From Turneriella parva (GTDB lineage: Bacteria; Spirochaetota; Leptospiria; Turneriellales; Turneriellaceae), in assembly GCA_020719945.1 (NCBI GenBank), contig DYPL01000026.1, positions 1-32,323 on the forward strand: 32,323 nucleotides of DNA. The letters run 5' to 3'. A program made the position numbers and the translations under genes. Positions within the stretch are counted from its first letter, which is position 1; each line of letters begins with the position of its first letter. Positions 11,817 through 32,323 of this stretch are shown here, piece by piece. Under the pieces are notes generated by a model, which was given only the letters and a program-made list of their open reading frames with translations, made no database searches and was not told the origin of the DNA.

Positions 11817-11825
11817 GAGGATGCC

Positions 11826-13199: not shown

Positions 13200-13200
13200 T

Positions 13201-16200
13201 ATGTCTGATTTTGATCAGGAGATGATTTCGGACTTTGTAGAGGAGTCCAAAGAACTGCTCCAAAGCATTGTGGAGGATTTTCTACAACTTGAAAAAAGCC
13301 CGGATGATACCAATCTAGTCAACAAATTGTTTCGCGCCGTTCACACCATCAAAGGCACTTCTGGCTTTTTAGGGCTTACCTCTATAGGCACGCTGTCCCA
13401 TGCCATGGAGACACTTATGTCCAAAATTCGGGACGGAAAGATTCTTCCTGAAAACTCCCATATTAATGCACTGCTGGCTTCTTCAGATCTGCTCAGCAAA
13501 ATGATCCACGACGTTCATTCTTCTAACAGCGTAGACATATCCGCGCTGACAGCATTACTCCAGACACTCATAGATGGAAAGAGTGTTGCTGCGCCCGAAA
13601 GTCCTCCCGCCGTGCAGGGAGTTCCAGAGCTGCAAATGCTTCCCAAAGCAGCTGCAGAAATGGGAAAGCCCGCAAACAGGCAGGATAGCAGTGAAGGCAT
13701 TGATTCCGAAATACTAACCGGGTTTGTGTTTGAGGCGCGTAAATACCTCAACAATCTTGATGAACTGCTGAGCAGTTTGGCCAACCATCCTGAAAAAGCG
13801 GATAGTTCGGTTTTACAAAATATATTTCGTGCCGTGAGTGCCATTGAAGGCACAGCGCGATTTATTGGATTAAAAAATATTTCCATGCTGGCAGGCGACA
13901 TGGCCGCCTTTTTTGAAAACCAGTTGAAAGCTGGATCCGCAGTTACTGCAAACGAAATGGATTCCATGCTCACAGTAAAAGACAGGCTGGAATCTCTGAT
14001 CGATGACATTGAACACAGCGACGACATTGACGTTTCGGACTTACACCAGAAACTGCAATGGGTGGCTGGCTCGACAGAACCTGTGCCGACGACTGCAATA
14101 AATATCCCCGTGCTTCCCTCTGCCTCTCCCAACCTGCAAGTTGCAAATCCAGTGCCCCCCGGCAGGCCCGGCGCAATTTCCAAATCGCCTCAAAAAACCG
14201 CAATGCCCAAAGCGCCAGAAAAGGAAGAAATTGCGTCAGAAACAATTCGCATCACCGTTGCCTTGATTGATCAACTGATGCGCCTGGCGGGAGAACTCGT
14301 TCTGATCCGCAACCAGTTGCTGATTACCCTGAACGAAGAAGGCGGCGGCAAGAGGGAAGTAGTACAGCGCCTGGACTCTGTAACATTGGAGCTCCAGGAA
14401 GCCATCATGAAAACGCGCCTGCAGCCCGTTGGCACTATCTTCAATAAAATTCCGCGCATAATTCGCGACCTCGCACAATCGCTCGGAAAAGATATTCGCG
14501 TGCAGATTATCGGCGCAGAAGTAGAGCTCGACAAAAATATTCTGGAGCTGCTGGCCGGCCCCATGATTCATCTCGTTCGCAATTCTGCTGACCACGGAAT
14601 TGAAACACCCGAAGAGCGCACCGCAGCCGGCAAAGCTCCGCAGGGTAGTCTGGAAGTGCAGGCATACCACGAGGGCGGCCTGATTCATATTTTAATTCGC
14701 GACGACGGGAAAGGTATAGACAAAGAAAAAGTAGCAAAAAAAGCCATATTAAGCGGCATAAAAACACCTGTAGAAATTGGATCCATGAGTGAAAACGAAA
14801 TCATGAATCTTATCATGATGCCTGGATTTTCAACCGCCGAGCAGGTTACTGACGTATCCGGGCGCGGCGTCGGGATGGATGTCGTTAGTTCGAGCATTGA
14901 AAAGCTGAACGGATCTATTGACATTACCTCCCAGACGGGAAAGGGTACCACCTTTTTGATGAAGCTGCCACTCACTCTGGCCATTATTCCAAGCCTCATT
15001 ATTTCATCTCAGGGCCGCCGCTTTGCCATCCCCCAAGTAAATCTCGATGAGCTTTTTTCCATTAACGCCCAGAGCGAAGGCCCCCGCATTGAGCGCGCCG
15101 GCGACCAGGAAGTGTTTCGCCTGCGGGATTCTCTTCTTCCCATGGTACGCTTTAATGAAGTTTTGTCTTACGCTGGACGGTTCAGCCGAAACGACAAACA
15201 TCATCTTATACAAAAATATCATGGTGGCGAAAGCAGAGAAACGAGCAATACAAATTTTGCCGTACTAATTGCGGGCAATCGCCGTTTTGGCCTGATTATT
15301 GACGAAGTTATCGCCACGGAAGAAATTGTCGTTAAACCCATGCACCCGGCTATTAAGAAAATTCAAATCTATTCCGGGGCCACCATTCTTGGAGATGGCT
15401 CCGTAGCCATGATTCTCGATGCCGAAGGAATTGGAAACCATGCCGCCATCGATTTTAATGCCGGCTTGGAAGATACATCCAACCTGCTTCGCTTTGCCAA
15501 AACCGGAGAAGAAAACACGGAATCGGTTCTATTATTCCGCAATGGCCCCAACGAACAGTTTGCCATTTCTCTGCACCTGGTCCAGAGAATACAGCAAATC
15601 AATTTACCGAATATTGAAAAAGTGGGAAGCCATGAATTTGCCAATATTGACAACAAAAGTTTCCGCATTCTTCGCCTTGAATCTCTCATAAACGTTTCAG
15701 CATTTGCCGGTACCGGCAATGCTTTTCTGCTTTTGTTCAAGCATATAGCGAAACCCGTTGGCCTGCTCATATCCGAACTCATCGATATTAAGGAAGTCAG
15801 CATTTCCCTGGATTCCTTTGGCTATGGAACCGATGGCATCCTTGGCAGCGACATCCTGGATGGCAAACTAACGCTGTTTCTGGATATACATAAACTGATT
15901 GAATTGTCGGATCCAATCGTAAAGCAGACGGAAATTTCCCTGCGAAGAGCTACCGACAAACAGAACCCGGATTCAGCGAGACTGCTCGTTGTAGAAGACT
16001 CATCCATCTTTCGGCAGATGCTCACCCGCTATCTTGCTCCCGAGGGATACAATATTGATCTGGCAGAAGACGGGCTCGTGGCACTGGAAAAAGTGCGGAC
16101 GAATACATATGATCTCATAATCTCGGATCTTGAAATGCCAAACATGAACGGGCTGGAATTTATTCGCGAATTGAGACACAGCAACTACCAGAACAATATT

Positions 16201-16350
16201 CCCGCAATTGCATTGTCTTCCATCAATTCAGCCGAAATCATAGAAAAAGCACTGCAATCCGGTTTTGACCACTACGAAGTAAAGCTGGAAAAAGACAATC
16301 TTATCAAGGCCGTAAAAAGCATCCTGCTCGAAAGAAGGGGGGCCGCATGA
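13201..16350 (+). CDS. cheA: Hybrid chemotaxis histidine kinase CheA (Hpt, pseudo-Hpt, kinase, two CheW-like domains, receiver)
   Basis: A 1049-residue CheA. Hpt domain 1 (residues 1-105) has phosphorylatable H48 in VHTIKGTSG. A second Hpt-like domain (about 168-280) reads VSAIEGTARFIG, with S213 and E216 in place of the histidine and lysine, so it cannot be phosphorylated there. A proline-rich linker precedes the dimerisation helices (from about 346). The ATPase domain shows N461 in LVRNSADHGIE, DDGKGID at 501-507 and SGRGVGMD from 553. Two CheW-like domains follow, from about 596 and about 773. A receiver domain ends the protein (926-1045, acidic D933, phosphoacceptor D976 in SDLEMP). No P2 domain is evident. 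The terminal receiver may act as phosphate sink or internal regulator. Start is one base after the second receptor. Confidence 0.93.
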   Translation: MSDFDQEMISDFVEESKELLQSIVEDFLQLEKSPDDTNLVNKLFRAVHTIKGTSGFLGLTSIGTLSHAMETLMSKIRDGKILPENSHINALLASSDLLSKMIHDVHSSNSVDISALTALLQTLIDGKSVAAPESPPAVQGVPELQMLPKAAAEMGKPANRQDSSEGIDSEILTGFVFEARKYLNNLDELLSSLANHPEKADSSVLQNIFRAVSAIEGTARFIGLKNISMLAGDMAAFFENQLKAGSAVTANEMDSMLTVKDRLESLIDDIEHSDDIDVSDLHQKLQWVAGSTEPVPTTAINIPVLPSASPNLQVANPVPPGRPGAISKSPQKTAMPKAPEKEEIASETIRITVALIDQLMRLAGELVLIRNQLLITLNEEGGGKREVVQRLDSVTLELQEAIMKTRLQPVGTIFNKIPRIIRDLAQSLGKDIRVQIIGAEVELDKNILELLAGPMIHLVRNSADHGIETPEERTAAGKAPQGSLEVQAYHEGGLIHILIRDDGKGIDKEKVAKKAILSGIKTPVEIGSMSENEIMNLIMMPGFSTAEQVTDVSGRGVGMDVVSSSIEKLNGSIDITSQTGKGTTFLMKLPLTLAIIPSLIISSQGRRFAIPQVNLDELFSINAQSEGPRIERAGDQEVFRLRDSLLPMVRFNEVLSYAGRFSRNDKHHLIQKYHGGESRETSNTNFAVLIAGNRRFGLIIDEVIATEEIVVKPMHPAIKKIQIYSGATILGDGSVAMILDAEGIGNHAAIDFNAGLEDTSNLLRFAKTGEENTESVLLFRNGPNEQFAISLHLVQRIQQINLPNIEKVGSHEFANIDNKSFRILRLESLINVSAFAGTGNAFLLLFKHIAKPVGLLISELIDIKEVSISLDSFGYGTDGILGSDILDGKLTLFLDIHKLIELSDPIVKQTEISLRRATDKQNPDSARLLVVEDSSIFRQMLTRYLAPEGYNIDLAEDGLVALEKVRTNTYDLIISDLEMPNMNGLEFIRELRHSNYQNNIPAIALSSINSAEIIEKALQSGFDHYEVKLEKDNLIKAVKSILLERRGAA

Positions 16351-16856
16351 GAGAAACCTCTGGTTACGGAAATCGTCTGTTTGTAACATTTCATATGGGC
16401 GAGCAGCATTACGGAGTTGACATTCGCAGTGTTCGCGAAGTAAATTCAGAATTCCGGATGACGGACATTCCCCACAGTCCCAAAGAGGTGGTGGGATATG
16501 TTAACCTGCGTGGCCAGATTCATTTGATCATTGACCTTCGCCCTCTGTTAAGCCTTCCGGAATCCATGGTTCCTCTTTTACAAAGAAAATTAATCATTTT
16601 CAAGGAAAAGATAGGTGAGCCTTTTGGAATTATTGTGGATGACGTTGGAGACGTGATCACGATTTCAGAAGAGAGAATTGAAGATTTCAATCTTCAGGAT
16701 TCAAAACTGGATATTCCGGATCGGACATACGAGCAGGACATCATGAACGGAATCTGCAAACTGGATCAATCTCTCATGGTTACAATCGATGCCGAAAGCA
16801 TCCTGCGCATTATTACCGCAAGAATGGAGAACTATGAAAGTACTAATCGTCGATGA
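16347..16856 (+). CDS. cheW: CheW coupling protein
   Basis: A 169-residue CheW. Visible family features are FHMGEQHYGVDIRSVREV near the start, the VVGYVNLRGQIHLIIDLRPLL core, FGIIVDDVGDVITI and a terminal ILRII. CheW links receptors to CheA in the cytoplasmic array. Its ATG overlaps the cheA stop as ATGA, and its end overlaps cheB by 23 bases, so expression is coupled. The gene stands beside a CheA that already has two CheW-like domains, so the array stoichiometry may be unusual. Confidence 0.93.
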   Translation: MRETSGYGNRLFVTFHMGEQHYGVDIRSVREVNSEFRMTDIPHSPKEVVGYVNLRGQIHLIIDLRPLLSLPESMVPLLQRKLIIFKEKIGEPFGIIVDDVGDVITISEERIEDFNLQDSKLDIPDRTYEQDIMNGICKLDQSLMVTIDAESILRIITARMENYESTNRR

Positions 16857-17892
16857 TTCTATTATATTCCGAAAGGGAATAGAAAAAGCGCTCACACAGA
16901 TTCCCGGCATAATCGTAATCGGATCTTCCTGGAACGGACTCAAAGCTTTGGAGTTCTTACAGTCTCTACAAGTTTCAGATCTGCCAGATCTCATCACTTT
17001 AGATGTTGAAATGCCGGAAATGGATGGCCTGCAAACCCTGCAGGAAATTCAAAAGATAAACTATTCTCATCAGGGAAAAAAAACCATGCAGGTTCTGATG
17101 GTTTCTTCTCTCACCAAAGAAGGCGCAAAAGTAACCATTTCTGCACTCCAGCAGGGAGCGTTTGATTTTATTACAAAACCCGAAAATCTCGATTCAGATA
17201 AATCCGTGGAATTTTTGCGGGATGCGATAACCGAAAAAATAAAAATAATTTCCGGCAAAGACAAAGGGGAACAAATTATTTCCCGCACCAGCAAACTGGA
17301 AACAAAGCTGGCTTCTTCCTTCCGTTGTATTGGAATTGGCATTTCTACGGGAGGGCCAAAAACACTTATGCAGCTGTTGCCGCCCCTGTGTGAAGCGACA
17401 AATCTTCCCATACTTATTGTTCAGCATATGCCAGAAGAATTCACAAAATCTCTTGCCGCAAACCTCGATCGTTATACATCGCACCGGGTCAAAGAAGCAG
17501 AAGAGGGCGAGACCATCTCTGACAAGACTGTGTATATTGCGCCGGGCGGAAAACACATGGTTGCCCGATACGACCAGCAGGGCAAGTCAGTGATCGGCAT
17601 TAATGATCACCCCGCCGAAAACGGCTGCAAACCTTCTGTCGATATTTTATTTAGATCTCTTGCTTCAATTTTTGCAGACAAAACAATTGCCCTAATTTTA
17701 ACGGGAATGGGTAACGACGGAACGCGCGGACTGGCAACGCTTAAAAGAGCCGGTGCCCATGTGATTGCGCAGGACGAAGCGAGCAGCACCATCTGGGGAA
17801 TGCCCGGCAGCGCCGTAAAAAGCGGCGTGACAGATGAGGTTCTGCCCCTCGACGAGATACCTTCGCGCATACGGAAAATCCTTCATGGATGA
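16834..17892 (+). CDS. cheB: Protein-glutamate methylesterase/deamidase CheB
   Basis: A 352-residue response regulator. The receiver domain begins KVLIVDDSIIFRKG with phosphoacceptor D57 (LDVEMPEMDG). The methylesterase domain has the catalytic triad S171 (GISTGGP), H198 (VQHMP) and D295 (GMGNDG). It removes methyl groups from receptor glutamates to adapt the system, opposing CheR. I chose ATG 16834, where MKVLIVDD matches receiver starts and GGAG lies upstream; earlier in-frame sequence overlaps cheW. Its stop overlaps the cheR start (ATGA). Confidence 0.95.
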   Translation: MKVLIVDDSIIFRKGIEKALTQIPGIIVIGSSWNGLKALEFLQSLQVSDLPDLITLDVEMPEMDGLQTLQEIQKINYSHQGKKTMQVLMVSSLTKEGAKVTISALQQGAFDFITKPENLDSDKSVEFLRDAITEKIKIISGKDKGEQIISRTSKLETKLASSFRCIGIGISTGGPKTLMQLLPPLCEATNLPILIVQHMPEEFTKSLAANLDRYTSHRVKEAEEGETISDKTVYIAPGGKHMVARYDQQGKSVIGINDHPAENGCKPSVDILFRSLASIFADKTIALILTGMGNDGTRGLATLKRAGAHVIAQDEASSTIWGMPGSAVKSGVTDEVLPLDEIPSRIRKILHG

Positions 17893-18749
17893 TTATGGAA
17901 GACAAAATAAGCGAAAAAGACTTTGCTCCCATTGGGGAATATATCGAAACGATTTCTGGCGTGAACCTGAAGTACGAGAAAGAATACCTTGTGAGACAGA
18001 GACTTACACCCATTTTGCTGCGCAACGGTTTTGACAGTTTTTCCATATTTGCGCGCCACGTATTGAGCAACAAAAACAATACTTTTAATGCCGATGTGAT
18101 ATCAGCTATCTGCACACATGAAACCTCTTTTTTCCGCGACGAGCACTTTTTTACAGCCCTGGCCCGCCACGTGTTTACAGAATTCAGCGTCCAGAATTCC
18201 GAGCAGCCTGTAAAAATCTGGAGTGCAGCTGCCTCAACCGGTCAGGAGATTTATTCTCTTGCCATTCTCATCGATGAGTTTGTGCACTCGCACCCGTATG
18301 CGGGATTGCAGTTTAAAGACTTCCGCATTTTCGGAACAGACATAGATGGGAAGGTTCTTAAAAAAACTGCGGATGGAATTTACACGGAGGCAGAGGTTTC
18401 CAGAGGATTATCCTCGGGAAGACTTTCCAAATATTTCACACCCATCCAGGACGGCTGGTACGTAAATCCCAAATTGCGCGACATTGTGATCTTAAACAGA
18501 CTCTCTCTCCACGACTTTTCGTTATCTGATATTACAGAAGCTCCCTTCGATATTATTCTACTGAGAAACGTTCTCATCTACTTCAGGGAAGATACCACCA
18601 GAAATATCATTTCTGCCATACACTCCCTCATGAAGTCGGGGGGATATTTACTGCTTGGATCTTCAGAAAACCTATATAAAATTTCGGATCTGTTTGAATC
18701 CATCGCTTTTGAAAATTCAATTCTTTACAGGAAAAAGGACTCAACATGA
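17889..18749 (+). CDS. cheR: Chemotaxis protein methyltransferase CheR
   Basis: A 286-residue SAM-dependent methyltransferase for receptor glutamates. The N-terminal helical domain includes ISEKDFAPIGEYIETISGV and ICTHETSFFRDEHFF. The SAM-binding domain has IWSAAASTGQEIYSLAI (usual form WSAGCSTGEEPYSLA), FGTDIDGKVL, and ILLRNVLIYF with a terminal GGYLLLGSSENLY. Starts at ATG 17889 or 17895 are both possible; the first overlaps the cheB stop. Its own stop overlaps the cyclase gene as ATGA. Confidence 0.95.
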   Translation: MIMEDKISEKDFAPIGEYIETISGVNLKYEKEYLVRQRLTPILLRNGFDSFSIFARHVLSNKNNTFNADVISAICTHETSFFRDEHFFTALARHVFTEFSVQNSEQPVKIWSAAASTGQEIYSLAILIDEFVHSHPYAGLQFKDFRIFGTDIDGKVLKKTADGIYTEAEVSRGLSSGRLSKYFTPIQDGWYVNPKLRDIVILNRLSLHDFSLSDITEAPFDIILLRNVLIYFREDTTRNIISAIHSLMKSGGYLLLGSSENLYKISDLFESIAFENSILYRKKDST

Positions 18750-20263
18750 CATTCCCTCTGATAACAGAAGATCCCCTCATTGCATCTCTGCTGTCCCTTT
18801 CTTTCAAAAATAAAGGAATTACGCTCCAGATATTTTCCGAACCGGCACAGATCCCAGAGTCACGGGCCTATCTGCTCGACGCCCTTCTATATTCAAAAAG
18901 CATCTGGAAGGATTTCGCTAAAAAAAAAGGAAAGGATTCAACGGTTATTGTTCTTATAGACCCGTTTACAGAAATTCCGGATACGGAAAAACCTAACTGC
19001 CATACATTCAGCCGAAATCTGAAAGATCTGGACACGCTATACTCTCTACTTGTTTCTATAGAAAAGTCGCGCCCCGAACCGGCATCCACAAAAAATACGA
19101 ATCCGCCCACAGCTCCTGAAAAAAACGAACACGTTAGCGTTGCCGACGCCGAGGTGGGCCAAGCACCTTCTTCGGATGTCGCTGATTTTGTCGGCTCGGA
19201 TGTTCATGTACTGCTTGCAGACGACAGCAAACCAATCCGAAATTTTGTAACAAAACTTTTGCAATCTAAGAACTTTCAAGTTACGACATTTGAAAACGGC
19301 CAGGAGCTGTTAGACTATCTGCACAACGACATGGGCGATCTAATCCTCATCGATAACCAAATGCCGGTACTGAACGGAATTGATACACTGCGCATACTCA
19401 AAGCAAATGAAAAGACAAAAAGTATTCCTGTTTTATTTTTATCGGCAATCAAAGATAAAGATCAGATTGTTACGGCACTTGAATTTGGCGCAGACGATTA
19501 CATGGAAAAGCCGTTTAATAACAATGAATTTTTTGCACGCATCAACGTTCATCTCCGCATAGAAATGCTGAAAAAACAGCTGTTCCAGAAAAACAGAATG
19601 CTGGAGTCCATGAACGAAGAAATTTCTTTTCAGAAAGAACAGTCAGACAAGCTGCTTCTCAATACACTCCCCAAAAAAATTGTAGAAGAACTGAAAGAGA
19701 AGGGGAAAACAGAACCCGAAACGTTTAACAACGTAACGGTGTACTTTTCGGATATAGTAGGATTTACTAAAAAATCTTCTTCCATGGAACCGGGAAATTT
19801 GATCTCTGAATTGAACGAGATTTTTACAGAGTTCGATAGCATAATGGAACGCCATGACTGCGAGCGCATCAAAACAATCGGGGATGCATACTTAGCGGTT
19901 TGCGGAATGCCAGAGCCCAACTCTGAACATGCGCGAAACATTGCCAACGCCGCACTCGACATAAGGGGTTACCTTGCCCAGCGCAATGCTGAAAACGAAA
20001 TCCAATGGGAAGCAAGAATCGGAATTCACACGGGAAAAGTGGTGGGTGGAGTTGTCGGCATCAAAAAATACATATACGATATTTTTGGCGACACCATCAA
20101 CACTGCATCCCGCATGGAAAGCAATTCACTGCCAATGAAAATCAACGTTTCTTCTGAAATCTACGAACTACTAAAAAACGAATTTGTATTTGAAGAGCGG
20201 GAACCGCTGGAAGTCAAAGGCAAGGGGACAATGAAAATGTTTTTCCTGAATGGGCCTGCTTAA
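18746..20263 (+). CDS. Receiver-class III adenylate cyclase fusion (output of the Che system)
   Basis: A 505-residue protein. Residues 1-110 resemble a degenerate receiver without the acidic residues. A proline/glutamate-rich linker leads to a full CheY-like receiver (153-270) with phosphoacceptor D203 in LIDNQMP and conserved K in YMEKPF. A coiled linker joins it to a class III cyclase domain (about 325-503). Metal ligands are D336 (YFSDIVGFTK) and D380 (IGDAY). The base-specificity residues are K376 (RIKTIGD) and D445 (YDIFGDTIN), the adenylate-cyclase pair; guanylate cyclases have E and C. INTASRMES supplies the transition-state asparagine and arginine. It should make cAMP under control of receiver phosphorylation. 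It overlaps cheR by ATGA, so it belongs to the same regulon; no separate cheY exists in the window. Confidence 0.93.
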   Translation: MTFPLITEDPLIASLLSLSFKNKGITLQIFSEPAQIPESRAYLLDALLYSKSIWKDFAKKKGKDSTVIVLIDPFTEIPDTEKPNCHTFSRNLKDLDTLYSLLVSIEKSRPEPASTKNTNPPTAPEKNEHVSVADAEVGQAPSSDVADFVGSDVHVLLADDSKPIRNFVTKLLQSKNFQVTTFENGQELLDYLHNDMGDLILIDNQMPVLNGIDTLRILKANEKTKSIPVLFLSAIKDKDQIVTALEFGADDYMEKPFNNNEFFARINVHLRIEMLKKQLFQKNRMLESMNEEISFQKEQSDKLLLNTLPKKIVEELKEKGKTEPETFNNVTVYFSDIVGFTKKSSSMEPGNLISELNEIFTEFDSIMERHDCERIKTIGDAYLAVCGMPEPNSEHARNIANAALDIRGYLAQRNAENEIQWEARIGIHTGKVVGGVVGIKKYIYDIFGDTINTASRMESNSLPMKINVSSEIYELLKNEFVFEEREPLEVKGKGTMKMFFLNGPA

Positions 20264-20365
20264 ATTTTCTTTACAGCCGCCGTGCATCAACATATCCGAT
20301 ACTACCCAACAAAAAGAGCCTGAACAGCATTGGCTTTTCAGGATACTTAAGTAAGCTCTGATAAA

Positions 20366-20395
20366 GCATGCGTGCGGCTCGCTCCGCCGCTATGC
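20366..20395. terminator. Hairpin between the convergent cyclase and receptor genes
   Basis: GCAT and GCGGC (20366-20378) pair with GCCGC and ATGC (20386-20395) around a TCGCTCC loop. It sits in the 141 bases between two convergent genes. No T-run follows on either strand, so it may be a weak terminator. A smaller dyad CCTGAA/TTCAGG lies at 20319-20342. Confidence 0.4.
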
Positions 20396-20404
20396 GAACA
20401 GAGG

Positions 20405-21874
20405 TTACTTAAAGAAACTCACGGTTTCTTTAAGGGTTTCGGAAAAGCTTCTCATCTCAGCAGAAGTAGCGGCAAGCTCCTCTGCTGAACTTGCATTCTG
20501 CTGCACAGAAGTATTGATCTGAAAAATTGCAGAACTGATTTCAGAAATGGCGCGCGTTTGCTTTTGAGAAGTAAGGGTAATTTTTTGAATCAGCTCAACG
20601 CTTTGCTGTATCCTCGGCACTATCAGCTGTATTTCTTTTAATACATTTTCTGATTTCTGGACGCTCTGCTGAACCAAGGCAATAATTTCTTTTGCGCCTG
20701 CCTGCGATGTATCAGCAAGCTTGGACACCTCGCCGGCTACAACGGCAAATCCACGGCCATGTTCTCCTGCGCGGGCCGCCTCAATTGTTGCATTCAATGA
20801 AAGAAGATTTGTCTGGGAGGCTATTTCTTCAATTACACGGCTTTTGTTCTGAATTTCCTGAATCATCTCCATAAGATTTTTCATGGAATCCTGCACAGCC
20901 TGCCCGCTGCGACGAGTCACATCAGAACTTTCGCTGCTTTTTTCAGCAGCTGCTTCGGCCTCATCCTTGGCCTCGGAAGCAGAGCGGGAGATTTCTTCCA
21001 GTGAGCCTGTAATTTCTTCCATGGTGGCGGCCTCGTTATTGGTTTCACCAGAAATAAGATCCGCTGTAGCATTAATTTCCTGGGCAGACACGGCAAGATG
21101 CTCCGCACTGCTGCGCACATTCTGGCCAATTTCAAAGAGGCGCTCACTGAACTGCTTCATCTCTTTTTCGAGCATGCCAAATTCATTTTTAGAAAAAAAA
21201 TCCTGCTCGTAACTGAAGTGACCATCTTTCATTTTATGAACCACCTCCGTCAAATGCTTGAGCGAGCGGGTCATATAAATGGCCATCAGAGAGACAAAAA
21301 AAACGATAAACACAGAAAGCCCAATATCCATCCCGAAAATCAGATTCTGGACAAGTTCCCTAGCTTTTGGAATCATGTCAGAAAAAATTTTCCGGTTTTT
21401 TTCGGTCTCCACGAGATACCGGTTCAGGTTTGTCAACAATTCGGGATATGCCAGAGAGCCCGATAAATAGCGCTGTGTATATCCCTGCGCCTCAAGATTG
21501 TCTTTGCCTTCTTTTTCGCAAATATCAAAAGCCTCGCCAAAACCCAGCACTCCAAAACCCCAGCGCTCCAGTGGAATCACAGAAGACAAACAAAGCTCAG
21601 GCTCTGCCATATTTTGCTCCAAAATGGGAAGCAGGCCAAGGTCGTTGCGGGAAGAAGATTCGCGCGTAAGAAGAGTATGTATTTCAGCAGAAGAAACAAC
21701 AGGATCGAGAACCTGCAACGCCGCTATTTTATTTTCTTTGAGCATGGTAAATTCCGTGTGCTCTCTTTCCAGAAACTGAAAAAAACCCGTCTTTCCAAGC
21801 TCGATCATTCCAACAAGGTTAAAGATAATAAAGAAAACGATGGAACCGACAATGAGTGTCATTTTCATTTTCAT
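20405..21874 (-). CDS. Methyl-accepting chemotaxis protein, canonical transmembrane type
   Basis: A 489-residue receptor from ATG 21874. The first membrane helix follows [19 protein letters not shown], a periplasmic sensor of about 150 residues follows (it has two cysteines, in ELCLSS and DICEKE), and the second helix is [22 protein letters not shown]. Next come HAMP and a signalling domain with the fully conserved tip [20 protein letters not shown] and [15 protein letters not shown]. It therefore keeps the arginine and glutamate that the two operon receptors lack, so it may belong to a different array or seed a mixed one. No pentapeptide tail. It is convergent with the chemosensory operon and downstream of the tail-fibre-like gene. 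Starts at 21868 or 21862 are possible. Confidence 0.92.
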
Positions 21875-22175
21875 GTTTACAAACCCGGAAAAATGGAATT
21901 CATCTCCAAAAACAGCATGCTGCTTCAAAATAGCAATTGCTTTTTATGAGAAAAGCCCACACACATGAGACATAAGGTTTATTATGAGAAGTGCCGGGCT
22001 CCGCCTGCGAACCCTGCCCATACGCGCAAAAAATCAAAAGAACAAATTTCTCATCCCATATGGTTCAACGCGTTTAATCAAATGAGGTGCCCTATCCGGG
22101 CGGGACGTCGCTTCCGGAAAGGAATTACTTAATCTCCATAATGTCAATCCGCCCGCATAAACATGGTCGTATATT
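21875..22175. other. Intergenic region upstream of the third receptor
   Basis: About 300 bases without a gene. It holds ATGAGACATAA (21965-21975), an 11-base match to the 15-bp box found beside rep. A perfect -35-like TTGACA lies on the minus strand at 22142-22147, but I see no good -10 at normal spacing. It also receives the end of the tail-fibre-like gene. Confidence 0.4.
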
Positions 22176-24569
22176 TTATTTTACCAGCAAGACCTGTACA
22201 ACCGTTTCTCTGTTTTCGCTGGAAGAAGAAACTGCAATCGCCAGCGCTTTTTCGTCAGCGGCACAAACGCTGGCAACACCGGGATCTGCACCCTTAAAAC
22301 AGAGCTTATCGCCAGACTGAACCGGGCCGCGAACGCGCATGGGCAGCAACCCGGAAACGCCAACCAGGCTTTTCCCCTCTGGTCCCACTACAAGGGCTGC
22401 ACTCTTTACAAACACGCCAACCACGGGTTCTTTTTTGTCGCGAACCTGGGCAAGGCGACTTTCTTTTAATGTAAGCAGATCGCCCTCTTGTACCGGGTCG
22501 CGAATCTCCCCAGGAAAAGAAACGGCAATGGCGCCATTCTTCTCGGCAAAAACCTCTCCCGAAAAACGGGAAATTCCTTCTGCGTGCAGGGCTCGGCCAG
22601 ACCCGCGAACAGCCCCCCAGGTTGCCGGAATCGTGAGGGCATAATTTTCAGCAGAGAATGCCTGCATCCCAACGCCTTCTCTCGACGATGCCTCTACGGC
22701 TGTTCCTTTTTTAGAAACCGCCGTTAAGGCCGTTCTCTCTCCAGATCGCGATACGAGTCCACCACGCAATAGCGCTGCCGCCCCCTCTGCGTTTTTGACA
22801 TAAAGAGGGAATCCCTGCGGATCGGGAGAGTTCCAGTCTTTAACATCAGAAGTCTTCTCCCCTGCCTCCATGTGCAGCGGCCCTTTGTGTTCGGCAAACG
22901 AATGACCTGCCTTAGCATATTCTGCATGATCATGCGGGAGCGGATCTCTCGCATCGGTAAGCCGTTTATCGGTAGCCTGCACGACACTACCAGCGGCCAA
23001 ATCGCCATTGGCTGCAAGAGAAACAATCCCCGGACTGGATTCCGTTGCAGGCTTAAGCCTTTCATCACTGCTCTGAACGGCCTTTAAGGGAGAATCTTCC
23101 CCGCTGCGTGCAAACTGTACCCCGCCACGGCTCGTTTCGGTTCCTTCTGCCAGCCTTGGATCATCGGACTGAACCGCCGCAAGGGAAGCAGATTCTCCAT
23201 GAACGGCAAAGCGCCCTATTCCGGGAATCGCCGTAGAGGCCGATCGAAGCCGCGCGTCATTGCCCTGCACAACCGTGCCCGGCAATACTCCGCCATTTTC
23301 AGCAAGGATGACAATTCCAGACTGCTTCTCCGTCGCCATTTTAAGACGCGAATCGCTCGCCTGAACAGCCTGGCCAGACAATGTTGCACTGTCATCGGCA
23401 AGCTGCACAATTCCTGGATAATCCACCGTTCCACGACGCAGGCGGGGATCAGTAGACTGAACCGCCGTCATGGGACGCACTTCATCATGGCTGGCAAGCT
23501 GGATAATGCCGGGGTATTCTTCCGAAGCCGGGCGCAAACGTGGATCATGAGACTGTACCACTTTTCCAGAGGCCGACTCCCCTTCTCCCGCAAGCAAAAC
23601 AATTCCTTCATTTGTGGTCGATGCCGGTTTAAGACGGGAATCGCTCGATTGAACAGACTTCATTCGAGATGTTCCTCTATCTTCAGAAAATGTAACTACA
23701 CCGGGCATCAGCTCGCTGGCATACAGAGGCTGGTTACCACTCCCCCTGCGAGCCTGCGAATCCGGCAGGGCAAATATTTTCATATCGAGAATTCTGGAGC
23801 AAAAAGAATCTTTCTTCTTTTGAAAGGGTTCATGCACATGCAGGCGCACTCTGTTTGCCCTTGCATTTTCAATATCCCAGAAATAGATTGAGCCAGGAGA
23901 TGCAAAGAACTGGCTTTCCGTAATCACTGTTTGCCATACATTTCCATCGAGAGAAAGTTCTATGCTGAATGACGACGGGAAACAGGTTACCTCTTCGTGA
24001 ACCGACTTTAGAGCAATCCTGCGAATATACCGGGGATGGTTGAAGGAAACCTCGACAAAGTCTATGGCGGGTTCTGAAGTTTCTGCAGATGACCAGCCGT
24101 AATCTTCCCTGCCATCAAATAAATTTTCCGCAGTCCACAACCGGTCTAATTGTGAGCTCGCTTTGACCTGAAGTTCTGCATTGCGCTGTACTTCTATTCT
24201 GGGGGCCGAAAAATGAGAGAACAAACTCCCCGATCCCGGGGAAATATTGAGCTGCAAATGAGAACCCTCTGTGAGCGGAAAATCCCATACAACAAAATGA
24301 GCCTGCTTCATCTCGTGCACAATGGGCACCCTGCTCCAGTTTTCACCGTCTACAGAAGCGAACACAGATATCTTGAGATTATAGTCTGCCTCCATTCTAA
24401 TTCTGCTGAAGCTTCTCACTCCGCCAAAAGCAATGAGAACAGTGTCAGAATACACCGAATTCGTTTTTTGGAGATGGTAGGATACGGAGTCTTTTTTATT
24501 CTCTGCACTTCCATGGAGAGCCGACGCAGACTCAATTTCCAAGGACTCGGGACGGGTAATGTCTATCAT
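22176..24569 (-). CDS. Large phage-tail-fibre-like/adhesin protein with discoidin-like N-terminus and eight 32-residue repeats
   Basis: A 797-residue protein from ATG 24569 (GGAG ten bases upstream; TTG 24587 is an alternative). The first 270 residues look like two discoidin (F5/8 type C) beta-sandwiches, e.g. ISVFASVDGENWSRVP and then AENLFDGREDYGWSS with FSIELSLDGNVWQTV. Residues about 289-543 are eight repeats of 32 residues with pattern GIVxLAxxGxxxxxxxVQSxDxRLxxA. The last runs into DKRLTDARDPLPHDHAEYA, very like phage tail fibres. The C-terminal 150 residues contain VVGVFVKSAALVVGPEG, VSGLLPMRVRGPVQSGDKL and PGVASV, a beta domain that ends many tail fibres and surface proteins. No signal peptide. 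It probably binds surfaces or glycans; no other tail genes are present. It follows the four-segment membrane protein by 18 bases. Confidence 0.75.
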   Translation of the reverse strand: MIDITRPESLEIESASALHGSAENKKDSVSYHLQKTNSVYSDTVLIAFGGVRSFSRIRMEADYNLKISVFASVDGENWSRVPIVHEMKQAHFVVWDFPLTEGSHLQLNISPGSGSLFSHFSAPRIEVQRNAELQVKASSQLDRLWTAENLFDGREDYGWSSAETSEPAIDFVEVSFNHPRYIRRIALKSVHEEVTCFPSSFSIELSLDGNVWQTVITESQFFASPGSIYFWDIENARANRVRLHVHEPFQKKKDSFCSRILDMKIFALPDSQARRGSGNQPLYASELMPGVVTFSEDRGTSRMKSVQSSDSRLKPASTTNEGIVLLAGEGESASGKVVQSHDPRLRPASEEYPGIIQLASHDEVRPMTAVQSTDPRLRRGTVDYPGIVQLADDSATLSGQAVQASDSRLKMATEKQSGIVILAENGGVLPGTVVQGNDARLRSASTAIPGIGRFAVHGESASLAAVQSDDPRLAEGTETSRGGVQFARSGEDSPLKAVQSSDERLKPATESSPGIVSLAANGDLAAGSVVQATDKRLTDARDPLPHDHAEYAKAGHSFAEHKGPLHMEAGEKTSDVKDWNSPDPQGFPLYVKNAEGAAALLRGGLVSRSGERTALTAVSKKGTAVEASSREGVGMQAFSAENYALTIPATWGAVRGSGRALHAEGISRFSGEVFAEKNGAIAVSFPGEIRDPVQEGDLLTLKESRLAQVRDKKEPVVGVFVKSAALVVGPEGKSLVGVSGLLPMRVRGPVQSGDKLCFKGADPGVASVCAADEKALAIAVSSSSENRETVVQVLLVK
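22940..23705 (-). repeat. Eight tandem repeats of 96 bp within the tail-fibre-like gene
   Basis: The DNA encoding residues 289-543 repeats with a 96-bp period, seen as recurring PGIV..LA and VQ(S/A).D.RL motifs. The copies are diverged at the base level, so they are old and not a recent slippage product. Confidence 0.8.
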
Positions 24570-24587
24570 TCCTGAACAGCTCCGCAA

Positions 24588-25187
24588 TTATAGAAAAATT
24601 CCGCCAAGCCAGCCAGCAAACCACACGAGAAGAAGTGTAAGCATGGCAGAAAGTGCTATAGAGGAAAAAATGGTGAGTGACTCATAAAAAGAATGGCGAT
24701 CGAGAATAAAGCGCAAAAAGGACTGCTTATCTTCCTGGGTCATGCTTTTATACTTTTCTTCCCACATTTCAGAAGCGGAAGGATTTCCAAAGGCGTCTGG
24801 AAGATCTCTGTCCCCGGAGGCAAGGCGCATGGAGGCAACGATAAGCAGAAATCCAATAAATAAAAAGACGAGAGCTCCGGCATGCTGGTAACTATCCGCA
24901 TTAAAAATGCCGGACGAATAGGATTCGAGAAGCATTACGGTATAATAAAAAACTTCTCCTAAGAGAAGAATGGCTCCGGCAAAAGCGAGCCACTTGCCTC
25001 TTTCCGAAAACTGGCGCATTTTCTGGAGCAATAATCCAGTCACGAGATCTTCCGTGGCGCTAAACTGATAAAAGCGGGATAAAAACAAAGAAGCATTGCC
25101 CCTCGATGTGCCCGTAAATATATACCAGGCCGCCAGAAAAAGCACAGCCGCTACGATCATTACAATAAAAAAAGTTAGAATATTCAT
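24588..25187 (-). CDS. Membrane protein with four predicted helices, unknown function
   Basis: A 199-residue membrane protein. Hydrophobic segments lie near residues 2-24, 68-86, 103-121 and 174-195. A charged cytoplasmic loop (GDRDLPDAFGNPSASEMWEEKYKSM and following) separates the last two. No domain is recognised. CAGGGGG lies five to six bases before ATG 25187. The stop is 18 bases before the tail-fibre-like ATG, so the two are co-transcribed; it may anchor or export that protein, but this is inference. A sigma-28-like -10 box lies upstream. Confidence 0.6.
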   Translation of the reverse strand: MNILTFFIVMIVAAVLFLAAWYIFTGTSRGNASLFLSRFYQFSATEDLVTGLLLQKMRQFSERGKWLAFAGAILLLGEVFYYTVMLLESYSSGIFNADSYQHAGALVFLFIGFLLIVASMRLASGDRDLPDAFGNPSASEMWEEKYKSMTQEDKQSFLRFILDRHSFYESLTIFSSIALSAMLTLLLVWFAGWLGGIFL

Positions 25188-25409: not shown

Positions 25410-26324
25410 TCATCCAGCGTTTTCCGACAGGGCGTCCCTCTGGGCGGCCATTAAAATCTTCAAGCGTACCCCTTTCTCTGCGGCTAACGCCTCAATGAGT
25501 TCAATGGGAACAGACGAATTCGTTGTTTGTAAAAAATGACTGCCCGAGTACGTGTACCACAGCTTAAGATCTGCCAAGTACTTCTGGAGAGTTTCTGGAA
25601 ATATGGCGGAAACCTCTTCCGGCAATGAATTCCGGACTCCCTCGCCGGACGGATTACTTTTAATCGTGTCGCGGTTTTTGAGAATACCCTCCAGATAACG
25701 GATATTGCCTTCCTTGCCCTGCCGGATGGCAATCTTAATACCCTCCCCTACTTCAAGCTCACCATATTTCTGCATTAGCGATTGGACAATCTGCTGCCTG
25801 TAATCATCCTGTTTTTCTCGAGGCTCTTTCTCCAAAAACATTTTTAACAATCCATGAATATTACTCAACAACTGCTCTTGTTTTTGATTTGATTCCTGGT
25901 TTATGTTTATATGGATATTGTTTGGGATTCCCTGGTTATCCCCCAGGGGGTTATTTTGGTATCCCTCAGGGGGATTTTGCTGTAACCGTCTGCGGAGTAT
26001 GGTTTCCTCCCGGTATCTTTCAATATCCACCTGGCTGCCCGGATAGTCAAAGCGAAAATAGTACCGCGTGTTTGTCCGCCCGGTGCCGGGAAGGATGTCC
26101 AGAAGGCCAGAAGATTGCAATTCCTTTCGTGCTTCCTGGAGGGATTTCTTTGTCTTGAATCCTGTCAGCCGCAACAGTTCTTCCGTTCCCGGGAAAACAG
26201 GTTTAAATGTTTCGTCAGAAAAGCGAAGCAATACCGGGTACAGGGATTTAGCGGACGGAGAAAGCGCCGCCCAGATTCCGGAGTCCACGAGATCGCTCAT
26301 GAACTTTGAAAAAGTATGATTCAT
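25410..26324 (-). CDS. Plasmid replication initiator-like protein (winged helix)
   Basis: A 304-residue protein. The N-terminal 95 residues form a helix-turn-helix domain of the type seen in plasmid and DnaD-like initiators: SGIWAALSPSAKSLYPVLL, then FPGTEELLRLTGF and KKSLQEARKELQSSGLL, ending GRTNTRYYFRF. A low-complexity asparagine/glutamine/proline linker (about 110-150) is encoded by repeated DNA. The C-terminal half is helical. GAGGGG precedes ATG 26324 by seven bases. Its place beside parB/parA, the repeats inside it and the controlled leader upstream all point to replication initiation. I call it Rep by architecture and context; no catalytic motif is expected in such proteins. Transcribed leftwards from a promoter near 26550 with a leader of about 196 bases. 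Confidence 0.7.
   Translation of the reverse strand: MNHTFSKFMSDLVDSGIWAALSPSAKSLYPVLLRFSDETFKPVFPGTEELLRLTGFKTKKSLQEARKELQSSGLLDILPGTGRTNTRYYFRFDYPGSQVDIERYREETILRRRLQQNPPEGYQNNPLGDNQGIPNNIHININQESNQKQEQLLSNIHGLLKMFLEKEPREKQDDYRQQIVQSLMQKYGELEVGEGIKIAIRQGKEGNIRYLEGILKNRDTIKSNPSGEGVRNSLPEEVSAIFPETLQKYLADLKLWYTYSGSHFLQTTNSSVPIELIEALAAEKGVRLKILMAAQRDALSENAG
25920..25978. repeat. Iteron-like repeats inside rep, candidate replication origin
   Basis: TGGTTATCCCCCAGGGGG (from 25933) and TGGTATCCCTCAGGGGG (from 25957) repeat with a 24-base offset. Both contain a CCCYCAGGGGG dyad. A degenerate third copy, TTTGGGATTCCCTGG, starts at 25921. They lie in the part of rep encoding the variable linker, as in RepA_N-type plasmids and phage lambda O, whose origins lie inside the initiator gene. 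Confidence 0.45.
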
Positions 26325-26363
26325 CGATACCCCTCTTATAACCTAAAAATAATCAAAAAGGAG

Positions 26364-26393
26364 TTGACAGAATGTTGGACACGTGATTATGTC
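26364..26393 (+). promoter_or_regulatory. Possible promoter of the antisense RNA
   Basis: A perfect -35 TTGACA (26364-26369) is followed at 17-18 bases by TTATGT/TATGTC, a weak -10. It would start transcription near 26400, rightwards into the leader of rep. Confidence 0.4.
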
Positions 26394-26400
26394 TCATTAT
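26386..26400 (+). promoter_or_regulatory. 15-bp box ATTATGTCTCATTAT, plus-strand copy
   Basis: It is identical to the box at 26527-26541 on the opposite strand, and overlaps the -10 region of the candidate antisense-RNA promoter. Confidence 0.5.
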
Positions 26401-26453
26401 CCAACAAGTTCCTAAGGAAACCACTGGGGGCATGCGTTGCGTGCCCCTTTTTT
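26398..26453 (+). ncRNA. Candidate antisense RNA to the rep leader (copy-number control)
   Basis: A strong intrinsic terminator on the plus strand ends nothing else that I can see: no plus-strand gene lies upstream. A TTGACA promoter is placed to start an RNA of roughly 55 bases. That RNA would be fully complementary to the middle of the rep mRNA leader, the usual layout of counter-transcribed RNAs that limit plasmid copy number. The ends are estimates. Confidence 0.45.
26427..26453 (+). terminator. Intrinsic terminator in the rep leader, plus strand
   Basis: GGGGCATGC (26427-26435) pairs with GCGTGCCCC (26439-26447), with one G-U pair and a GTT loop, followed by six T residues (26448-26453). 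On the minus strand no T-run follows, so it works only rightwards. Confidence 0.8.
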
Positions 26454-26526
26454 CTCTTCCTTTTTGACGGTCCGACAGGGCGATCTTTTTTTTTCCAACA
26501 AGCTCCGCCGGTGACCTGAATTCACC

Positions 26527-26555
26527 ATAATGAGACATAATGTATTCTCTGGCAA
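26527..26555 (-). promoter_or_regulatory. Likely rep promoter with embedded 15-bp box
   Basis: On the minus strand -35 TTGCCA (26555-26550) is spaced exactly 17 bases from -10 CATTAT (26532-26527). The inverted copy of the 15-bp box (26527-26541) covers the -10. The resulting leader to ATG 26324 would be about 196 bases. Confidence 0.5.
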
Positions 26556-26612
26556 GCACTTTTCCAAGTTTTACCAGTAGCAGGCACGCATTGTGCAGAA
26601 ATATGGCCTTGT

Positions 26613-27500
26613 TTAGGGTTGTTTTTCGGAAGAAAGGCGTAGAATGGCGTCTTTAACCACGCGGGTAAGACTTCCTTCCAGTTCGGACAGGGTGAATTGT
26701 GCCTCTACAATGTTGGTCGCCTGAATTTGTATGCCAAGCTCCTGCTCATTATTCCATTTGGCCTGAACAGAGACAGCGGGGGTCCAGCGAATAGAATTGC
26801 GGGTCGTTTCGCCAAAAATGCGCTCTTTGCCGGTCGCAGGAGTCTCTTTTTTCCCTGTTTTGACAAATTCCCGGGCTGTTTTCACGTTGCTGATGCCACC
26901 CTCCTTCCATTTTGCCAAAAACTCGTCTGACATGTTGGATTTGTGGGCTCGGGCGAGCTGGATCAGTAGATTGCTGCTGTTTATCCCTTCTTTTGCCGCT
27001 TCGGATAAGATCTCTTCTGGTATTTCGTTGATGGAAAGGATCTCAGAAATATAATTTCTGGACTTCCCTATAATGGACGAAAGTTCAGCGTCCGTATAAG
27101 AGAACTCGTCCTTGAGTCGCTTGTAGGCAACGGCTTCGTCATAGGGGTTCAGGTCTTCCCTTTGGATGTTTTCAATCACCGCCAGCTTGAACTTTTCGCG
27201 CAGGTCTTTATTGAGAATTCGGCATTCAATTTCGGTCCAGCCGGCCATAGTGGCAGCGCGGAATCTGCGCTCGCCAGCAATAATAGAGTAGCGGTTTCCC
27301 GTCTTTGTGACCACAATGGGTTGCAGGAGGCCTTCTTTCTGGAGGGAGTCGGCCAGTGCCTGAATATTGGCACCCTGCTCCTGTCGAGGCTGGTCTTCGG
27401 TTGGGTCAATCTGGGAGAGCGGGATTTTTCGGATGACTCCATCCAGGTCGCGTTCAAAGATATCGGCAGCTACGGCAAGGCGCTTACTTTTTGGTGCCAC
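26613..27500 (-). CDS. parB: Plasmid partition protein ParB
   Basis: A 295-residue ParB/Spo0J-family protein. The N-terminal nuclease-like (CTPase) fold contains IPLSQIDPTEDQPR, LLQPIVVTKTGN, then AGERRFRAA (GERR at 76-79) and ENIQREDLNPYDEA. The central helix-turn-helix region includes LSSIIGKSRNYISEIL. The C-terminus is a dimerisation segment with TLSELEGSLTRVVKDAI. It binds parS sites and spreads, working with ParA to segregate the plasmid. It starts at GTG 27500, six bases after the strong AAGGAGG. It overlaps parA by 17 bases. Confidence 0.93.
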   Translation of the reverse strand: MAPKSKRLAVAADIFERDLDGVIRKIPLSQIDPTEDQPRQEQGANIQALADSLQKEGLLQPIVVTKTGNRYSIIAGERRFRAATMAGWTEIECRILNKDLREKFKLAVIENIQREDLNPYDEAVAYKRLKDEFSYTDAELSSIIGKSRNYISEILSINEIPEEILSEAAKEGINSSNLLIQLARAHKSNMSDEFLAKWKEGGISNVKTAREFVKTGKKETPATGKERIFGETTRNSIRWTPAVSVQAKWNNEQELGIQIQATNIVEAQFTLSELEGSLTRVVKDAILRLSSEKQP

Positions 27501-28239
27501 GGATTACCTCCTTGACAAATGAAAAGTACTCTTTTGCCTGCTTGATTCCGGGGTTGTAGTCGAGAAGTGACTGCTTGGATAGATGAGATTCTCCTACGGC
27601 TACCCCGCTGGAGATAAATGTTTCGAATACCGGAAAATAGTTTTCGATTACAGGCAGAATGGTTTTTGTCAGCACCGTATTTGGCTTTAATTGTGTTACC
27701 AGTGCGCCAAGAATGGTCAGCTGAGGATTGATTCTTCTTTTAATGCTTTCGATGGTGTTTTGAAGTCCTTTGATTCCATCTATGGAAAATTTTTCCGCTT
27801 GGAGCGGAACAACGACATAGTCAGAGGCAACGAGTGCGTTCACAGTAAAAATAGAAAGACTGGGTGGGCAGTCTATGACAATGTAGTCGTAGTTGTTCCG
27901 GATTTTGCCTACTGCATCGCGTAGAACATAAGGAGCCTCTACATTTACTGTGCCTAACTCAACCTCGGCAAGATTGATTTTGGAAGGAAGCAGCTCGAGA
28001 TTTTCGTATCGCGTCTGCTGGATAACGTCATTAACATCTGCTTTTTGAAGAAACAGATCCGCCGCCGAAATCTCCATGTGATCGGGTTCGATAAAAATCC
28101 CAGAACTGTTTCCCTGTGGATCCATATCTATTAAAAGGGTTCTGTTCCCTTCGAGCGCTAGTCCGTGCGCAAGATTTATTGATGTTGTTGTTTTCCCTTC
28201 GCCGCCTTTCTGGTTTGCGATAGCTATCACTGTTGCCAT
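27484..28239 (-). CDS. parA: Plasmid partition ATPase ParA
   Basis: A 251-residue deviant Walker ATPase of the ParA/Soj type. Walker A is K11-G-G-E-G-K-T-T18, with glutamate where valine is common. The A' block LLIDMDPQGNSS and the Walker B YIVIDCPPSLSIFTVNAL are conserved. There is no N-terminal DNA-binding extension, so it is the small (type Ib/Soj-like) form. AAGGAG precedes ATG 28239. It heads the parA-parB operon, divergent from the degenerate enhancer-binding-type regulator, with a 30-bp palindrome between. Confidence 0.95.
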   Translation of the reverse strand: MATVIAIANQKGGEGKTTTSINLAHGLALEGNRTLLIDMDPQGNSSGIFIEPDHMEISAADLFLQKADVNDVIQQTRYENLELLPSKINLAEVELGTVNVEAPYVLRDAVGKIRNNYDYIVIDCPPSLSIFTVNALVASDYVVVPLQAEKFSIDGIKGLQNTIESIKRRINPQLTILGALVTQLKPNTVLTKTILPVIENYFPVFETFISSGVAVGESHLSKQSLLDYNPGIKQAKEYFSFVKEVIRGTKK

Positions 28240-28285
28240 TATGTCTCCTTAATGCGCGCGCTTGCCTGTCCCGTCAACCGGAATT

Positions 28286-30609: not shown

Positions 30610-30624
30610 ATTATGTCGCATCAT
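30610..30624 (+). promoter_or_regulatory. Variant 15-bp box ATTATGTCGCATCAT
   Basis: It matches the box beside rep at 13 of 15 positions and overlaps the ATG at 30623, so a protein bound here could block expression of the exported-protein gene. Confidence 0.35.
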
Positions 30625-31486
30625 GCTTGGAAATGCAGCGAAATCAGCGAGAAAGTGGATCGGCAGGCTCATGTTTGCTGCCGCTGTTTTATTCTCTGCG
30701 TCTCCGGCGTTTTCCGCTTCTGGGGCTCCCGGTGTGTTGCCGTCTCTCGTTCAACTTGGGAGCGTAGCTGTAGAAACCACCCTCGGCGATGCGCCGGATG
30801 CGGTGCAAAAGATTGTGTCCGGGTTTCCCGTTGTCCTCGATCGGTTTGCGGTCGCTGCATCCGAAAGAAACCAGCCGATAGCAGTTCCGGTTATAGCAGC
30901 TGTTCAGCCCAAAACAAAGGTTCCTCCGGTTCGACGGAAGGCTCCGAGGAAAACGGTTGGCCAGAGACAGTTGGCAGATTTGCAGCCTGTTAGGGCTCTT
31001 CTATATTTGACCGCCACCACAGAAGAAAAAGTTCTCTGTTCTCTGTTTCTGCCAGAAGATGTATGCAAGATCCTGCTCGACGACTACGCCTTTTCTCTGG
31101 ATGTAATACAACGCCCGGATTCTGGGACAGGTCTCGGAAAAACAGTAGACTACTACCGGCTTCATTTTTTGATTGTCCATGAATCAACCTTTAGATCTAT
31201 CGACAGAGCTCCGTTGGGTTGCAGTAGACACGGAAACGACTGGGCTCAATCCATGGAAGCACGAGCTCCTGGAGATTGGAGCCGTTCGATTTGGTCTGCA
31301 GGGGATCACAGAAGAATTTCAGGTTTTGATAAAGCCGCAGCACAAGATAGATCCGCGTGCGAGAGCTGTTCACAATATATCGAACGAAGAACTGGAAGAG
31401 AAGGGCGTTTCTCTGCAGGAGGCCCTGCAGCTGTTTTCGGAGTTTATTTCAGGGGACGACCTAGTCTTTCACAACGCCCCGTTTGA
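30623..31486 (+). CDS. Exported protein of unknown function; 3' third overlaps the exonuclease gene
   Basis: The open frame gives 287 residues. The start is a good signal peptide: MLGNAAKSARKWIGRL, then the hydrophobic MFAAAVLFSASPAFSA with a likely cleavage after AFS/A. The mature part up to about residue 180 looks protein-like (EEKVLCSLFLPEDVCKILLDD, YAFSLDVIQRP) with a basic proline-rich linker (TKVPPVRRKAPRKTVG). From 31179 the frame runs through the exonuclease gene for 308 bases, and the sequence there (many R, S, G, W) looks like an out-of-frame reading. The real protein probably ended near 31180; a frameshift or lost stop may have extended it. No domain recognised. Confidence 0.5.
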   Translation: MLGNAAKSARKWIGRLMFAAAVLFSASPAFSASGAPGVLPSLVQLGSVAVETTLGDAPDAVQKIVSGFPVVLDRFAVAASERNQPIAVPVIAAVQPKTKVPPVRRKAPRKTVGQRQLADLQPVRALLYLTATTEEKVLCSLFLPEDVCKILLDDYAFSLDVIQRPDSGTGLGKTVDYYRLHFLIVHESTFRSIDRAPLGCSRHGNDWAQSMEARAPGDWSRSIWSAGDHRRISGFDKAAAQDRSACESCSQYIERRTGREGRFSAGGPAAVFGVYFRGRPSLSQRPV

Positions 31487-32045: not shown

Positions 32046-32323
32046 TTACTTGTCGGACGTTTTCAGTGCGCCCACCAGAGAGAGCCAGTTCTTTAGCATC
32101 AATAATTCAATTTTTAGCGCGTTAGACTCAAGGGTAGGCGTATGCACACTTAGCGCCAAATGTTCGGCCTTGTGGATGGCGCTCATAAGTTGGCGCTCGA
32201 TAGTGCCTAAAATTAATCCCGCCATCTTTTCGCCCTTGTAGAGCGTATGTAGGATTAATAGTAATCCGGTGCTTGAGTGGCCGAGTTCATCAATCTGGGA
32301 GGCTATTATTTCTGTCTCTGCTT
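32046..32323 (-). CDS. PadR-like regulator, C-terminal part (gene spans the circular junction)
   Basis: This is the 3' portion of the gene that begins at 287. Its unique part is 32046-32268; bases 32269-32323 repeat 1-55. It encodes a helical region (GLLLILHTLYKGEKMAGLIL, then ESNALKIELLMLKNWLSLVG) that would form the PadR dimerisation domain. TAA is at 32048-32046, directly adjoining the exonuclease stop. The unbroken frame over the join (510 bases in all) confirms the circle. Confidence 0.75.
   Translation of the reverse strand, partial: AETEIIASQIDELGHSSTGLLLILHTLYKGEKMAGLILGTIERQLMSAIHKAEHLALSVHTPTLESNALKIELLMLKNWLSLVGALKTSDK
32269..32323. repeat. 55-bp terminal direct repeat, right copy (circular overlap)
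   Basis: Identical to 1-55. Removing one copy gives a 32,268-bp circle. Confidence 0.95.

Follow-up and report, generated by a model that had tools for sequence, protein, structure and literature searches.

Among described replication systems, the repABC block of Alphaproteobacteria (R. etli p42d and pTiR10, for example) has the same order as the locus reported here, with ParA, ParB, an antisense RNA (the counter-transcribed RNA or ctRNA, also called RepE) and the initiator following one another. In repABC replicons, which include plasmids and secondary chromosomes, an RNA of ~50 nt with its own terminator hairpin lies in the gap between the ParB and initiator genes, and the origin falls within or close to the gene for the initiator (PMC3155836, PMC6090056). 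Work on p42d led to a scheme comparable to the one we propose below, in which the Shine-Dalgarno sequence is open without the ctRNA whereas the leader forms a terminator when the ctRNA is present (PMC3155836). Our locus and its relatives resemble repABC in the size of the predicted RNA, its own terminator, the occurrence on both plasmids and a secondary chromosome, and a probable origin in or near the initiator gene, but the initiator is here HTH_36/DnaD-like and the RNA sequence is unrelated. Staphylococcal plasmids of the pSK41 type offer a second parallel, their RepA being a winged-helix initiator under the control of an antisense RNA over its leader. The likeness lies in that pairing of winged-helix initiator and leader antisense RNA, with fold similarity between Rep and known initiators being weak; the difference is that the RNA gene here sits inside the parAB-rep gap. 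We consider it very likely that this gap encodes a counter-transcribed RNA of ~55 nt which limits Rep synthesis and copy number.

The first 55 bases of the window (the whole 32,323-nt stretch of Turneriella DNA analysed here) are identical to its last 55 (1-55 and 32269-32323), which makes a closed circle of about 32,268 bp (~32.27 kb) its most likely form. The genes parA, parB and rep all lie on the minus strand, with 288 nt between parB and rep, and are followed downstream of rep by two further minus-strand genes (24588-25187 and 22176-24587). The features discussed below are as follows.

25410-26324, minus strand: rep, replication initiator with a winged-helix HTH_36 N-terminus (Pfam, 5e-8), DnaD/O-like
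26325-26520, minus strand: leader of the rep mRNA, to which the antisense RNA is complementary over its full length; identity with the nearest relative 98%
26330-26337, minus strand: rep Shine-Dalgarno sequence AAGAGGGG, with a predicted unpaired probability of 0.03 in folds
26355-26364, minus strand: leader segment ACUCCUUUUU, which in predicted folds pairs with the Shine-Dalgarno of rep to form an OFF hairpin, a putative function
26364-26369, plus strand: -35 box TTGACA of the predicted antisense promoter; of 38 related loci, 37 have TTGAC in the corresponding position
26385-26400, plus strand: putative -10 region (GATTAT/TTATGT) of the antisense promoter, inside the operator-like motif ATTATGTCTCATTAT, which forms a perfect inverted repeat of 15 nt with 26527-26541 and is found class-wide
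26397-26412, plus strand: direct repeat TTATCCAACAAGTTCC, copy 1, at the antisense RNA's 5' end; the second copy spans 26491-26506
26399-26454, plus strand: predicted antisense (counter-transcribed) RNA, ~55 nt with approximate ends; promoter and terminator keep the same geometry throughout the class
26426-26454, plus strand: intrinsic terminator found by scan, with a 10-bp stem, 3-nt loop and T-run; compensatory changes among class hairpins
26527-26555, minus strand: predicted rep promoter TTGCCA-17-CATTAT, its -10 within the second operator-like motif copy (26527-26541); a promoter-like site lies beside the motif in relatives
26613-27500, minus strand: parB (Pfam ParB_N, 2.5e-21)
27484-28239, minus strand: parA (Pfam AAA_31, 2.4e-58)
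28238-28252, plus strand: weaker copy of the operator-like motif (2 mismatches) at the parA start codon, from the motif scan

HTH_36 is the only significant Pfam match of Rep, NCBIfam gave none and RepC homology was thus not recovered by either library; PHROG matches are to a DnaD-like helicase loader (8e-12) and a replication initiation protein. The predicted structure of Rep is of fair quality (pLDDT 79, pTM 0.39), and searches with it found no significant fold match, nor did Rep have a significant sequence match to a solved structure; the weak fold similarity is to 5kbj and 4pt7, two initiators of solved structure, with E of about 0.1. Subfamily models for the repABC partition proteins scored far below their cut-offs (partition_RepA 106 bits against 348, partition_RepB 31 against 201). 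By analogy, then, the unit would work like repABC control, yet on these searches it falls outside the repABC family. No Rfam covariance model matched above its gathering score in the window, and the one match to the region at E up to 10 was unrelated and at chance level; a known ctRNA family was considered as the identity of the RNA and rejected, there being no ctRNA match in Rfam.

The rep gene of the window has relatives on Turneriella parva pTURPA.01 (NC_018021.1; 46% identity over 95%) and on a 350-kb circular L. interrogans record, which from its size and gene content is chromosome II (CII, the size of which is listed in PMC2229662). All three share the order Fis-like regulator/HTH gene, parA, parB, gap, rep and discoidin-domain gene. 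Genes for queC, queD, queE, maf, an MFS protein, an MlaD-like protein, parAB and discoidin are common to the window, pTURPA.01 and a 17.1-kb circle of the relative G006, which suggests a vertically kept mini-chromid. The window also carries a chemotaxis-like cassette (9615-21928; methyl-accepting proteins and CheA-, CheW-, CheB- and CheR-like genes) that found no match on the T. parva plasmid and is apparently an insertion into the replicon. Across the class Rep is present in 36 of 48 genomes, as a single copy except in G017, which has two.

The preliminary description of this DNA had proposed a plus-strand terminator crossing the rep leader and serving no gene, and this holds: no plus-strand gene precedes it, and rep and the two genes downstream are on the other strand. 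Its arms, GGGGGCATGCGTTGCGTGCCCCT and TTTTTCTC, occupy 26426-26448 and are followed by the T-run. The hairpin has the most G-C pairs of 17 candidates between 24 and 29 kb, a region for which shuffles yield 5.5 candidates. A plus-strand open reading frame at 26316-26519 was rejected as a gene, since it spans the terminator and changes length within the frame in the nearest relative. The promoter said to face from the left was borne out in its -35 box but less so in its -10, the best plus-strand candidates (GATTAT or TTATGT) matching at 2-4 of 6 positions; because of this weak box the promoter was not listed by a consensus scan. The promoter said to face from the right is at 26555-26527 on the minus strand, as described, and its 9 of 12 matches are near chance alone (10 such sites found against 5.8 expected). 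On single-sequence evidence the terminator is clearly above chance, and both promoters are weak. Besides TTGACA and the terminator, the plus strand of the gap carries the motif CCAACAAGTTCC. The complete unit occurs exactly once in the 32-kb window. Promoter and terminator opposite the initiator leader together define a short complementary RNA, the general hallmark of a ctRNA, and its predicted extent of about 26399-26454 is close to the 26398-26453 claimed previously. The 5' motif of this RNA, TCCAACAAG(T/C)TCC, recurs as a direct repeat near the 5' end of the rep mRNA, and the same repeat is seen in other Turneriella relatives.

We applied one fixed definition of the unit (antisense TTGAC plus terminator) to the parB-rep gaps of the class and to three controls. 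It was found in 35 of 38 gaps, that of L. interrogans chromosome II included. The sense strand gave 0 of 38, dinucleotide shuffling produced the unit once in 2,280 sequences, and of 1,782 windows of 260 nt taken from elsewhere in these loci 2 contained it. It is this comparison, together with the single occurrence in 32 kb, that places the unit beyond chance. Read along the plus strand, the relatives' gaps present TTGAC at a distance of 31-110 nt from the start codon of rep, followed by CCAACAAGTTCCCTTTGGAA or a related motif and, after it, a G+C-rich hairpin with a T-run; spacing is near-constant, the terminator stem beginning about 50-66 nt past the -35. A promoter-like site for the sense strand adjoins the operator-like motif in convergent orientation in 36 of the 38 loci. 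The three gaps failing the definition are those of L013 (picked up by an earlier scan), L004 (in which the hairpin has diverged) and L042, from which the unit is absent. At this last locus, of G019, rep is kept and the parB-rep gap is cut to 149 nt. A sequence model of the unit, R1, matches the window at 26364-26451 (E 1e-9) and has strong matches solely beside parB, in 35 of the 48 class genomes. Among the genomes searched none of the genus Leptospira was evident, and for Leptospira proper the evidence is the L. interrogans record. The unit is thus restricted to this locus, with one match per genome except for two in G017, the genome with a pair of rep loci; G003, G004 and G006, none of which was used in building R1, were also found, and the remaining matches are few and weak (E above 0.001). 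The two loci of G017 (L032 and L005) are separate parB-antisense-rep arrangements, and they raise the question of how two such replicons are compatible.

The terminator stem is itself under selection. Among 14 distinct class hairpins with 4-nt loops, both sides have changed at 7 of 7 scored pairs, and two-sided changed cells number 39 against 9.9 in shuffles (0 of 500 shuffles). These hairpins were cut out and counted directly, a procedure which selects for pairing, and hence only counts of two-sided change were used. RNAalifold returned no pairs from a 33-sequence alignment because the terminator stems are misaligned in it. Selection extends to the leader as a whole. The 231 bp from 26325 to 26555 differ from the closest relative, G001 of the same genus, by 4 substitutions, while identity is 56% over the adjoining 57 bp toward parB (26556-26612) and 79-84% at the fourfold sites of rep, parB and parA; the start of the conserved block coincides with the rep promoter. 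The leader is, on this comparison, evidently under strong purifying selection. Given two convergent promoters, of which the antisense one could repress through collision, promoter and terminator might instead work through transcription interference, or form a roadblock for the transcript of rep, with the short RNA incidental. We regard this as improbable, since interference requires neither a conserved RNA body nor a terminator stem kept by compensatory changes, and both the CCAACAAGTTCC part and the entire leader are conserved. The class-wide presence of promoter, RNA and terminator opposite the rep leader instead agrees with the counter-transcribed-RNA layout that the preliminary description had recognised. 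That description had not noted the repABC likeness, the occurrence on Leptospira chromosome II, the operator-like motif common to the two promoters or the relatives in which the RNA gene outlasts rep.

Transcription of the RNA and repression of rep, as well as the mode of that repression, we infer from sequence. The antisense RNA would be made from the TTGACA promoter at 26364, end at the hairpin and T-run at 26426-26454, and pair with the rep mRNA leader to lower Rep synthesis. More copies of the replicon would mean more copies of the RNA gene and less Rep, a negative feedback that would fix copy number and cause incompatibility. The most likely mode is a leader switch with sequestration of the Shine-Dalgarno sequence, which we offer as a model. 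The middle segment ACUCCUUUUU sits just downstream of the antisense target, and the overlapping UCCUUUUUGA is able to pair alternatively with 26458-26467, upstream of that target; 26353-26362 and 26458-26467 form a perfect 10-bp inverted repeat, the partner being UCAAAAAGGA. Antisense pairing would stop the upstream leader segment from holding the middle segment, which, once freed, would fold over the Shine-Dalgarno. In the window, pairing of the middle segment with the Shine-Dalgarno exceeds shuffles at P 0.025 and that of the target with the middle segment at P 0.09. Pooled across loci (Fisher), the values are 2e-4 and 1e-3, respectively, although these overstate independence as the sequences are related, and few loci are significant singly. 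Folds of the T. parva leader gave no clear three-segment switch, and with the antisense target blocked in equilibrium folds the accessibility of the Shine-Dalgarno shifts little (P 0.09).

The motif ATTATGTCTCATTAT is a perfect 15-nt inverted repeat with one copy at each of the two convergent promoters. Allowing up to one mismatch, we counted 64 occurrences of TTATGTCNCAT in the 38 gaps and 12 at 265,226 strand positions elsewhere, and several relatives also have the motif at the start of parA or close to it. A longer form has five copies in the genome to which the window belongs, three of them on the window contig. Another perfect copy, ATTATGTCGCATCAT, spans 30610-30624, where a gene for a predicted secreted protein (30623-31486) begins, and the T. 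parva plasmid has a copy at 51-65. At the two promoters, TTATGTCNCAT probably serves as an operator for one of the replicon's own partition proteins, ParB or ParA. Rep is unlikely to be the only protein that binds it, because in the relatives G004 and G006 the promoter of a phage O-type initiator carries the motif twice though rep is absent.

These two relatives bear on what the RNA is for. In G006, a 17,261-bp contig with a 141-bp terminal overlap forms a circle, related to the replicon studied here, with parA, parB and the antisense unit and without rep; a profile search to E 1 found no rep homologue in this genome (99% complete), and the circle encodes a Phage_rep_O protein (Pfam, 5e-29). 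G004 (83% complete) likewise has parAB and the unit with rep gone, and its O-type protein, on another contig, is 55% identical to that of G006. The relevant coordinates are L089 7266-7327 and 11922-12932, L087 3139-3199, and L092. The antisense unit has, from these sequences, evidently been kept after the loss of rep, and control of rep is therefore possibly not its sole role. It might be supposed that the main target is something other than rep, such as partition, a downstream gene or an initiator in trans, particularly as the leader of the new initiator in G006 has GGGAACAA in common with the antisense target. The duplex energy of the whole RNA with that initiator is not unusual (32% of random windows are as good), and trans-targeting in G006 is at most a lead. 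The G004 leader lacks GGGAACAA and does not repeat the complementarity beyond 6 nt, and the unit faces rep in every other genome that carries it, which makes a main target other than rep highly improbable. A tentative and rather unlikely variant, suggested by the same two genomes, is that the RNA would be part of the partition module across the class, Leptospira chromosome II included, and would persist through a swap to the phage O-type initiator by acting in trans on the resident initiator or as a dedicated incompatibility RNA. It is also highly improbable that the transcript is a replication primer, or the hairpin an origin structure, rather than a regulator of rep: the cumulative GC-skew minimum of the circle is inside rep, at 25877, and transcripts do serve as primers at some origins, but this RNA ends at a strong intrinsic terminator, lies within the rep leader with fixed geometry and, where the initiator has been replaced, remains with parB and not with the new initiator.

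Leptospira plasmids of the LE1/lcp/pGui type have the same parA-parB-rep order, with a parB-rep gap of 390-456 nt, and differ from our locus in having another conserved leader and a Rep whose likeness is confined to its C-terminal part. They were rejected as carriers of the unit, the scan for TTGAC plus terminator being negative in 10 examples. Their parB-rep leader of ~400 nt is strongly conserved among plasmids and a phage (L077-L086), with TTATGTC motifs and shared blocks, and is possibly another structured regulatory leader. An open-access review (PMC6090056) mentions the L. interrogans chromid but gives no ctRNA for it, and the earlier impression that such control is not known from spirochaete plasmids of this type is in line with the open-access papers searched.

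The antisense RNA that we favour as a regulator of rep provides a concrete candidate copy-control element for Leptospira chromosome II and for the Turneriella minireplicons. It would extend an architecture of the repABC kind, built around an unrelated initiator, to another phylum, here within the Leptospira-Turneriella class of spirochaetes. Why selection should maintain the RNA gene is a question posed by the two relatives with replaced initiators. If plasmid vectors were built from such origins, the unit would predict their incompatibility and copy number.
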